Shown here: positions 1 through 25,197 of the stretch, one piece after another
Position numbering within the stretch: position 1 is the first letter of the stretch
Layout: each line of letters opens with the position of its first letter
From: Acetobacter orleanensis
GTDB lineage: Bacteria; Pseudomonadota; Alphaproteobacteria; Acetobacterales; Acetobacteraceae
Assembly (NCBI RefSeq): GCF_001581005.1
Contig: NZ_LHZV01000066.1
Location: 124,001-188,000 of the forward strand
DNA length: 64,000 bases
Direction: 5' to 3'
Notes under the pieces: generated by a model
Database searches by the model: none
Seen by the model: only the letters and a program-made list of their open reading frames with translations
Told to the model about the DNA's origin: nothing
Program-made: the position numbers and the translations under genes

Positions 1-761
1 CGCACGGAGGGGTGACGGGCTTTGATGGTCTGCACGATCTGGCGAGTGGGCGCGATAACATGCTTGCGGAATTCAGAAGGCGATAACAGGCCTGCCCAGG
101 AATCAAACAGCATGACAGCCTCAGCACCGGCTTCAATCTGGGCGCAGAGATAGGTTGCTGTCTGTTCTGTCAGAAGCGCCATCAGGCGATCAAACAAAGC
201 AGGTTCTGAAAACGCCATGGTCCGGGTCGTGGCAAATTCACGCGAGCCGCCGCCTTCCACCATGTAGCAGGCAACAGTGAAGGGAGAGCCGGTAAAGCCG
301 AGGAGCGTTGTCGCTCCGCCTTTAGCCGCACCTATATCGTCTGGTCCATCAAGAATGCGTCTCAGGCGGGACAATGTTTCCAGAACAGGAGCCGTTACCT
401 CTGCAATGCGTTCCGGGTCGAGTTTTGCCACATCAGCTTCACTGCGAATGGCACCCAGAACAGGGCCGGTGCCTTCTACAAACTCAAGAGACTGTCCCAT
501 TGCCCATGGCAGAATGAGAATGTCGGAAAACAGGATGGCGCCATCCATGCCAAAGCGACGGATAGGCTGCAAAGTCAGCTCTGTCGCAATATCTGGTGTC
601 ATGCAGCGTGTCAGAAAATCGGCTCTGGCGCGCATGGCCCGGAATTCGGGCAGGAAACGTCCTGCCTGCCGCATCAGCCACATTGGCGGTGGCCAGACAG
701 CCTCACCGTTCAATGTTCTGAGCAGGCGTTTGGAGGGGGGGATATCTGTCTTGCTGGTCAT
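1..761 (-). CDS. hemE: Uroporphyrinogen decarboxylase (partial, C-terminus outside window)
   Basis: HemE removes the four acetate carboxyls of uroporphyrinogen III to give coproporphyrinogen III in cytoplasmic heme synthesis. Reading leftward from the ATG at 759-761, the protein begins MTSKTDIPPSKRLLRTLNG and then has the family signature PPMWLMRQAGRFLPEFR near residues 25-41, whose arginines bind the substrate carboxylates. Further on are FSDILILPWAMG, GFTGSPFTVACYMVEGGGSR and LFDSWAGLLSP, all typical of HemE. About 253 codons of roughly 340 are present; the gene runs off the left edge with no frame break. It diverges from maf across a 368-bp non-coding gap. In Caulobacter and relatives hemE flanks the replication origin, which is relevant to that gap. 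Identification is secure. Confidence 0.95.
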   Translation of the reverse strand, partial: MTSKTDIPPSKRLLRTLNGEAVWPPPMWLMRQAGRFLPEFRAMRARADFLTRCMTPDIATELTLQPIRRFGMDGAILFSDILILPWAMGQSLEFVEGTGPVLGAIRSEADVAKLDPERIAEVTAPVLETLSRLRRILDGPDDIGAAKGGATTLLGFTGSPFTVACYMVEGGGSREFATTRTMAFSEPALFDRLMALLTEQTATYLCAQIEAGAEAVMLFDSWAGLLSPSEFRKHVIAPTRQIVQTIKARHPSV

Positions 762-1129
762 GGCCTGAAGTCCTGCACGTCTTTGTCCAACCTGTCCACG
801 GTCCTAAAATATAAAATAAAAGAATAGAAATGGATTTAGAGGTTAAAGGGTACTGTGGATGACGGGGTACCCACCATTCCAAAAATGTACCCCATCTTTC
901 CCACACTGTGTACAGATTACAGACCGTTGGAAATGCTAAGGTTTTCAGAGTTATCCAGAGTGTACCCAAATGGGGCTGTGTACAACTCACCGGTTCATGA
1001 CTCTTGTGAGTTGTGCACGGTACTCGGTACGGGCTTGTCACGATCACCGTACAATCCACATGTACCCCGGTACTCAGGAGAGTACTCACAGCCCCCTTAT
1101 TGCTTAGTACCTGAAAGAGACTCGCTTCG
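762..1129. other. oriC: Putative chromosomal replication origin (oriC), GTAC-rich
   Basis: This 368-bp region between divergent hemE and maf shows no plausible coding sequence. It opens with an AT-rich stretch (about 803-847) that could serve as the unwinding element. It holds near-matches to the DnaA box TTATNCACA with one mismatch at 854-862 (minus), 951-959 (plus) and 977-985 (minus), plus weaker ones at 897-905, 1011-1019 and 1052-1060. The tetranucleotide GTAC occurs 14 times between 850 and 1145, where about one is expected; the last copy lies just inside maf. GANTC methylation sites lie at 999 and 1119, with two more at 1153 and 1166. Origins next to hemE are known in Caulobacter and predicted for Rickettsia. 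The origin call is inference from position and motifs. Confidence 0.6.
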
Positions 1130-1762
1130 GTGCCAGATTTAGTACTCAAACCGACTCCAATACAGGACTCGCGCCATAAACTGGTGCTGGCGAGTGGTTC
1201 TGCCATTCGGCGCACCTTGCTGGAAAATGCCGGTCTGGCATTTTCCGTCATGTCTTCCTCCGTGGATGAAGAGCCTCTCAAACAGGCCGGATGGGCAGAG
1301 GGGGCCACACCGCAGACCGTTGCCCTCCGTCTGGCGGAAGCCAAGGCGCTTTCCCTCACCTGTGAAGATGCTTTTATAATCGGCGCGGACCAGATGCTGT
1401 CCTGTAACGGGAACTGGTATGACAAACCGGCTGACCTGAAAGCTGCCCGCCAGCAACTCCTGTCTTTGAGAGGGCAGACCCATACCCTGCATACGGCTGT
1501 GGTGGTGTGCCGAAACGGGCAGGTTTTATGGCAGCATGTTTCCGAGCCTCACCTTACCATGCGTCTGTTTTCAGAGGCTTTTCTGGATGCCTATCTAGCG
1601 GCGGAAGGAGAAGAGTGTCTGCACTCTGTTGGCGCATACCGGATTGAAGGTCCGGGCCTGCATCTTTTCGCCCGTATGGAGGGGGATCAGACAGCCATCC
1701 TCGGCCTCCCCCTTTTACCGTTGCTGGAAGGGCTGAGAGAGATGGGGGTGCTGTTTTCGTAA
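1130..1762 (+). CDS. maf: Maf-family nucleotide pyrophosphatase
   Basis: Maf proteins hydrolyse non-canonical or modified nucleoside triphosphates to monophosphates and were first described as septum formation inhibitors. The 210-residue protein has the N-terminal family signature LVLASGSAIRRTLLENAG (about residues 18-35), SSSVDEEP shortly after, and FIIGADQMLSC in the middle, whose Asp belongs to the active site. Length is normal. The start is GTG at 1130, preceded by GAAAGAG about 9 bases upstream; no better ATG precedes the conserved block. It is the first rightward gene beyond the putative origin. In many alphaproteobacteria maf is followed by coaE and dnaQ, but here tRNA-Ala comes next. 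Substrate preference cannot be read from the sequence. Confidence 0.9.
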   Translation: MPDLVLKPTPIQDSRHKLVLASGSAIRRTLLENAGLAFSVMSSSVDEEPLKQAGWAEGATPQTVALRLAEAKALSLTCEDAFIIGADQMLSCNGNWYDKPADLKAARQQLLSLRGQTHTLHTAVVVCRNGQVLWQHVSEPHLTMRLFSEAFLDAYLAAEGEECLHSVGAYRIEGPGLHLFARMEGDQTAILGLPLLPLLEGLREMGVLFS

Positions 1763-1844: not shown

Positions 1845-1920
1845 GGGGCCATAGCTCAGTTGGGAGAGCGCCTGAATGGCATTCAGGAGGTCGTCGGTTC
1901 GATCCCGATTGGCTCCACCA
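1845..1920 (+). tRNA. tRNA-Ala (anticodon GGC)
   Basis: A 76-nt cloverleaf with encoded CCA. The acceptor arm pairs GGGGCCA with TGGCTCC (one G-T pair), the D arm is AGCTCAGTTGGGAGAGC, the anticodon stem CCTGA/TCAGG encloses the loop ATGGCAT with anticodon GGC, and the T arm contains GGTTCGATCCC. It decodes GCC and GCT codons. Confidence 0.97.
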
Positions 1921-25112: not shown

Positions 25113-25197
25113 GCGAGAGTGACGGAATCGGTAGACGTAGTCGGCTCAAAATCGACCGCCGCAAGGCATAGGGGTTCGAGTCCCCTCTCTCGCACCA
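25113..25197 (+). tRNA. tRNA-Leu (anticodon CAA)
   Basis: An 85-nt class II tRNA with encoded CCA. The acceptor arm pairs GCGAGAG with CTCTCGC, the anticodon loop is CTCAAAA with anticodon CAA, a long variable arm (CCGCCGCAAGGCAT) follows, and the T arm contains GGTTCGAGTCC. It reads TTG codons. Confidence 0.96.

Follow-up and report, generated by a model that had tools for sequence, protein, structure and literature searches.

What does a dense cluster of the tetranucleotide GTAC signify in the gap between the divergent hemE and maf genes of Acetobacter orleanensis? The window analysed here, a stretch of 64,000 nucleotides (G000:C3:124001-188000), belongs to a 3.0-Mb draft genome of 67 contigs (G000), and the HemE part encoded in it is 94–97% identical to those of A. 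cerevisiae, A. malorum and A. farinalis. An initial annotation had listed 14 GTAC sites in the gap, had put the chance expectation at about one, and had proposed that the gap is a replication origin. Each of the 14 positions proved exact (Table 1), and chance indeed predicts few: the rest of the window holds 52 GTAC, or 0.245 per 300 bp, and with this background rate the Poisson term for 14 sites is ~2.5e-20. When 184 kb of the contig are scanned at 50-bp intervals, all eight of the most GTAC-dense 300-bp stretches fall in the gap, with up to 13 sites, and GTAC is depleted overall in the same 184 kb (164 observed against 267 expected from trinucleotides). The longest maf ORF begins with a GTG at 1130, to the left of the last GTAC, so the site at 1142 may be within maf; the Maf domain match starts at residue 17. 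Downstream of maf is a tRNA-Ala gene (ggc; window positions 1845-1920), and a tRNA-Leu gene (caa) is found at 25113-25197.

Table 1. Features in and around the hemE-maf gap, in window coordinates.
Feature	Position	Strand	Basis or remarks
hemE (uroporphyrinogen decarboxylase), 5' part, cut by window edge	3..761	-	ORF, PF01208
hemE-maf gap, proposed oriC, with GTAC cluster	762..1145	.	14 sites, skew turn, conservation in relatives
GTAC sites (n = 14)	850, 867, 887, 910, 962, 980, 1020, 1027, 1049, 1062, 1070, 1082, 1107, 1142
AT-rich stretch, candidate unwinding element	805..840	.	sequence; A/G-rich counterpart aligned in displayed relatives
DnaA-box-like TGTGGATGA	854..862	-	1 mismatch; directly after GTAC 850
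DnaA-box-like TTTCCCACA	897..905	+	2 mismatches
DnaA-box-like TTATCCAGA	951..959	+	1 mismatch
DnaA-box-like TGTGTACAA	977..985	-	2 mismatches; sole box containing a GTAC (980)
DnaA-box-like CAATCCACA	1052..1060	+	2 mismatches; between GTAC 1049 and 1062
maf, divergent from hemE, start codon uncertain	1130..1762	+	ORF, PF02545

Several features mark the gap as a probable origin. GC skew changes sign there: the two 8-kb stretches that meet at contig position 124001 have values of -0.086 on the left and +0.057 on the right, with 14 of 15 8-kb bins negative on the left and 8 of 8 positive on the right. In a relative, G161 (hemE at 2.326 Mb), samples of 20 kb also show the skew turning near hemE, with -0.053 at 2.16 Mb and +0.042 at 2.34 Mb; the sample at 1.98 Mb is an exception, positive amid negatives, and the opposite turn falls between 0.36 and 0.54 Mb. 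The AT-rich stretch and the DnaA-box-like sites of the initial annotation are present as well, the latter numbering five at up to two mismatches to TTATCCACA, two of them with a single mismatch and none perfect. A skew turn, an AT-rich element and DnaA-box-like sites, here weak boxes, are the features of hemE-type alphaproteobacterial origins, and they support the origin proposal; the hemE-maf gap is very likely the chromosomal oriC. Plasmid copies of the origin were sought and none was found. The dnaA gene of G000 is on a different contig (C56). We rejected the dnaA promoter as a second target, as regions upstream of dnaA have 0-2 GTAC each and no cluster (21 loci scanned, 19 scored), and any control therefore seems to act at oriC. 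Separately, contig C35 of G155, a 1.7-Mb Acetobacter genome, carries a DnaA domain frame (L282, L283) with three TGA, one TAG and one TAA that continues in another frame, which may be a frameshift, decay or an assembly error.

The cluster is kept in relatives. The hemE-maf gap contains 6-16 GTAC in 79 of the 80 named loci, and the remaining one (L081), which has no maf match, has 15 GTAC in 600 bp. With the skew turning at the gap and the cluster retained in relatives, both observations that had been singled out as able to overturn the origin proposal came out in its favour. Conservation also extends to individual sites: 13 of the 14 window sites are intact in 20 or 21 of the 21 closest loci (site 962 in 7), and in these loci GTAC blocks are intact at a rate of 0.935, against 0.517 for 206 other four-base blocks. 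What the sites have in common is the four bases alone. Over 318 GTAC sites from 28 origins, spacing is irregular and the flanks are near background, so that the flank preferences noted initially (CC or TC after, TG before) survive as a weak tendency of at most 0.26 bit of relative entropy per column, in origins that are related. By these alignments the selected unit looks like the palindrome GTAC itself. A conserved bare 4-mer fits the target of a methyltransferase better than a protein site of greater length, and a long protein-binding site is disfavoured by the flank statistics.

Two genes of the PF01555 family are conserved in G000 and in each of 18 further Acetobacter genomes, 19 in all. 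One appears to be CcrM-like, by length, DPPY motif and resemblance. The other, at G000:C7:29867-30709, encodes an apparently solitary methyltransferase of 281 aa (hereafter MTase) that is 30% identical to the CcrM-like protein of the same genome and has TSPPY where the latter has DPPY. Of 35 MTase sequences, 34 carry the extended motif TSPPYN, which we take to suggest an m4C product; the one without it is a non-orthologue in G162. Within the family the distribution of the MTase is bimodal: all 120 genomes match somehow, 79 with E<1e-100 and 41 no better than 5e-21. Class-wide, 4 of 289 genomes pass 1e-25, namely G000, two other Acetobacteraceae and one distant match (29% identity). Genes for a Tim44-domain protein and a cytochrome c peroxidase are both nearby in 26 of the 30 MTase loci kept (L148 has one of the two, L150-L152 neither). 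Distances between MTases rise with those between HemE proteins (r=0.91 at n=15, a value that 0 of 2000 permutations reached), both sets average 0.33, and the MTase thus behaves as a vertically inherited gene. No endonuclease gene was found among the MTase neighbours named by Pfam, and the phage R.RsaI protein introduced below had no match in the 120 family genomes, in a search run without a positive control.

Further genes of this kind were seen in passing. G186 carries a second MTase copy (58%), and G000 itself has a third PF01555-like frame of 452 aa with a divergent 248-aa ORF adjoining it (L122, G000:C22:28000-33000), perhaps a restriction-modification island. MTases ~50% identical to the Acetobacter one are encoded by an uncultured phage (L293, LR756511.1, 573937-579719 of a 595-kb record) and by a plasmid of Paracoccus alcaliphilus (L213, NZ_CP067127.1); these are a possible source of the captured gene. 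Four relatives of the MTase in IMG/VR are weak.

The presence of the MTase coincides with that of the cluster. The region upstream of hemE was read in 36 of the 79 MTase-positive genomes, G000 included, and 34 of these have 4-16 GTAC in 500 bp, as against 0-2 in each of 41 MTase-negative genomes. As the cluster of the remaining two positives lies elsewhere (see below), it is present in 36/36 positives examined and missing upstream of hemE in 41/41 negatives; a genome-wide scan of negatives for GTAC triples covered G164 and G213, the latter with 12 places that hold spaced triples. The lowest positives are two genomes of genus g141, with 4 and 6 GTAC, and in G170 of this genus no spaced triple was found at the place upstream of hemE. 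A HemE tree of 44 of 70 loci (minus-strand loci left out) needs two changes of the MTase label, and the 77 genome counts are therefore not independent tests. Dense GTAC clusters occur at the origin in many species, and we infer their assignment to the MTase. In the hemE upstream regions of MTase-negatives (L153-L182, L218-L228), the words TCCACA and TTATCC are frequent, as are TGATCC variants; these are ordinary DnaA-box origins. An excess of GATC in them was set aside as a signal, since it probably reflects the TGATCC DnaA-box variants.

The genomes that depart from the common arrangement are informative. G177 and G267 have 0 and 1 GTAC, respectively, upstream of hemE, and their clusters are found 26 and 20 kb away (L229, G177:C21:57500-62500; L230, G267:C12:40200-45200) with the same surrounding motifs; the one in G177 adjoins an ORF that we take to encode a GMC-type oxidoreductase. 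A cluster away from hemE and maf goes with something else, most simply the origin, which presumably relocated along with it. At least G199, G203 and G238, congeners of G177, have a similar cluster. One observation speaks against a strict link: G177 retains its cluster despite a TAA in its MTase frame (G177:C1:219570-220364), a stop that may be real or an assembly error.

In G164 the MTase is missing, the hemE-maf gap has 0 GTAC, and the genome as a whole holds one spaced triple, although such triples are not a sensitive detector, given that MTase-positive G168 has only two. In a HemE plus Maf tree of 34 rows, in which G164 is the sole MTase-negative because in the other negatives the locus ends within Maf, G164 is grouped with MTase-positive G198 (98/98), the pair being nested in a clade with Gluconobacter (100/97); in a HemE-only tree of 44 rows its group is weakly supported (66/97). 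G198 has 8 GTAC upstream of hemE (L201). In the corresponding 500 bp G164 has 14 perfect TTATCCACA boxes, whereas the window gap contains none and the 115 upstream regions counted as positive average 0.06 (a set that includes the 80 named loci, assumed to be MTase-positive, and both relocated-origin loci). This contrast is the strongest single argument for the enzyme and the cluster as one system, and it hints at a trade-off between the GTAC system and the strength of DnaA boxes.

The likely target of the MTase is indicated by its relatives. One in cyanophage Syn19, 44% identical over 95% of the protein, overlaps a gene annotated R.RsaI; another, in phage ACG-2014j (46%), lies directly after a 36%-identical R.RsaI; and in phage ACG-2014f the MTase is without an R.RsaI neighbour. 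The Syn19 R.RsaI protein has no PHROGs or NCBIfam hit, so that its name rests on the depositors' annotation. The MTase thereby shares a sequence subfamily with enzymes paired with a depositor-annotated R.RsaI, at 44-46% compared with the 30% to the CcrM-like protein. A middle part around GHFKPxNSxRF is common to the MTase and its Syn19 relative and largely absent from the CcrM-like protein, and it is this part that reads the target in such enzymes. M.RsaI yields m4C in GTAC (PMC6256690). We consider it very probable that the GTAC sites are the targets of the MTase, with GTAm4C as the predicted product.

How might such a mark serve the origin? We propose, with a probability of about 0.68 for the reading as a whole, that the GTAC sites of oriC are targets of a solitary M.RsaI-type MTase and gate DnaA in the manner of Dam and SeqA. 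The vertically inherited enzyme, encoded elsewhere in the genome, would methylate these sites; after initiation they would be hemimethylated until the MTase catches up. With about a dozen GTAC set among weak DnaA boxes, methylation state could control the access of DnaA, either directly or through a putative reader, and hemimethylation would delay the next initiation and hence set its timing. In keeping with such a role, 119 of 155 DnaA-box-like sites (at most two mismatches) from 28 origins, related and not independent, are no more than 4 bp away from a GTAC, whereas 500 random placements averaged 83.1 and never exceeded 106. This would be functionally like Dam/SeqA with GATC in E. coli, whose oriC has 11 GATC in about 245 bp. 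We infer GTAC as the methylation target, the base modified, its hemimethylation, the reader and the effect on initiation. Methylation of GTAC probably matters for initiation, and for a sequestration-like logic we see even odds. A bolder version, which we put forward tentatively and at slightly less than an even chance, is that these bacteria run a cytosine-methylation clock of their own beside CcrM: a captured RsaI-type MTase would write GTAm4C, a reader of hemimethylated GTAC or DnaA would read it, weak DnaA boxes would suffice, and the G164 origin would have been rebuilt with its 14 consensus boxes after loss of the MTase.

Other proteins might be imagined at these sites. The initial annotation had considered the site of a lineage-specific regulator, an idea that stands in spirit as a lineage-specific factor, although the best candidate is a DNA methyltransferase. 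GTAC could instead be the core site of a lineage-specific origin protein with the MTase as bystander or modulator: positions are fixed, the recurring motif contexts at origins include TGTGTACAA and ATGTACCCC, and DnaA-box-like sites are often close by, as described above. We think this unlikely, because the near-featureless flanks and irregular spacing leave little to read beyond the 4-bp palindrome, and the absence of the MTase where the cluster is absent, G164 included, is left unexplained. A variant DnaA box had also been suggested; DnaA itself would then bind the sites, and methylation would play no part. The conserved TGTGTACAA does resemble the DnaA box TGTGGATAA, and in G164 consensus boxes for DnaA take the place of the GTAC seen in its relatives; but just 1 of the 14 window sites is inside a box-like match at up to two mismatches (TGTGTACAA, at 977), flanks are near background and the conserved unit is the 4-mer, which makes this idea very improbable.

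Nor need the cluster concern replication, given its place within a divergent promoter region, where it could regulate transcription of hemE or maf. That the clusters of G177 and G267 lie 20-26 kb from hemE, which itself is left with 0 and 1 GTAC, and that the skew turns at the gap make such a role extremely improbable. Shared ancestry is a more general concern, since the contrast between positives and negatives is mostly one split of two large groups, with two changes on the tree; MTase and cluster could then be functionally unrelated, or the cluster a compositional accident. However, GTAC is 6.84-fold over base composition in origins and below trinucleotide expectation outside them (0.82 in MTase-positives and 0.74 in negatives, a depletion that, being alike in both, is not tied to the MTase), the cluster is kept across gaps spanning 30% to 64% G+C, and G164 lost both MTase and cluster. 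We judge an explanation by ancestry or composition alone to be quite improbable.

The proposed system fits a known kind. In the available text of Blow et al. 2016, clusters of orphan-MTase motifs, each at a putative origin and each correlated with the MTase, are described for GATC, for TTAA in Arthrobacter, for CTCGAG in Nocardia and for CTAG in Haloarchaea (the legend prints this last motif as CTAG, the running text as m4CATG); neither GTAC nor Acetobacter occurs in the main text as available (PMC4752239). The likeness lies in a conserved, here putatively orphan, MTase, an origin motif cluster and the correlation of the two; here, by comparison, the motif is GTAC, the enzyme of M.RsaI type, the class Alphaproteobacteria and the origin hemE-type, with nested co-loss and relocation of the cluster with the origin in addition. 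Dam of Enterobacteria is a solitary MTase whose palindromic 4-bp target clusters at the origin where the enzyme is present (PMC4752239, available text), and SeqA is described as sequestering hemimethylated oriC (PMC13076061, available text). The MTase family and target differ here, the predicted mark is m4C rather than m6A, the origin is hemE-type and a CcrM-like MTase coexists, so that our claim is one of working like Dam/SeqA and not of membership.

The RsaI restriction-modification system of Rhodobacter blasticus and the cyanophage pairs share the MTase subfamily, a comparison made through the phage MTases (44-46%) and not M.RsaI itself; unlike these mobile systems, the present MTase is conserved and vertically inherited. 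Solitary MTases kept across lineages and yielding m4C in GTAC are reported for two archaeal orphan groups, HG10 in Nitrososphaerales and HG18 in a Methanomicrobiales group; they belong to another domain of life, are likened here by description and not by sequence, and have no origin cluster reported for them in the available text (PMC10609329). CcrM, with its GANTC target, is also an orphan cell-cycle MTase of family PF01555 but, as seen above, a distinct protein, and the window gap has only 2 GANTC. In the open-access literature, none of the papers among the matches listed dealt with GTAC methylation or with clusters of GTAC at origins in Acetobacteraceae; a mention of an A. pasteurianus methylome proved to be no more than a reference, and papers on a halovirus MTase and on nanopore motifs contributed nothing. 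To the known orphan-MTase systems with origin motifs, the present one would add an enzyme family, a target, a bacterial class, an origin type, co-loss and relocation.

For acetic acid bacteria the GTAC cluster offers a sequence tag for the origin, which two genome papers, in their available text, place otherwise: near dnaA in A. pasteurianus 386B (PMC3751514) and at position 1,582,749 in A. cerevisiae KSO5 (PMC13209655). If the proposed reading is true, methylation-marked origins were invented separately in this lineage, with a predicted cytosine rather than adenine mark. The hosts are easily grown food-fermentation bacteria, and G164, a natural co-loss with a rebuilt origin, provides a ready comparison for the role of the mark.
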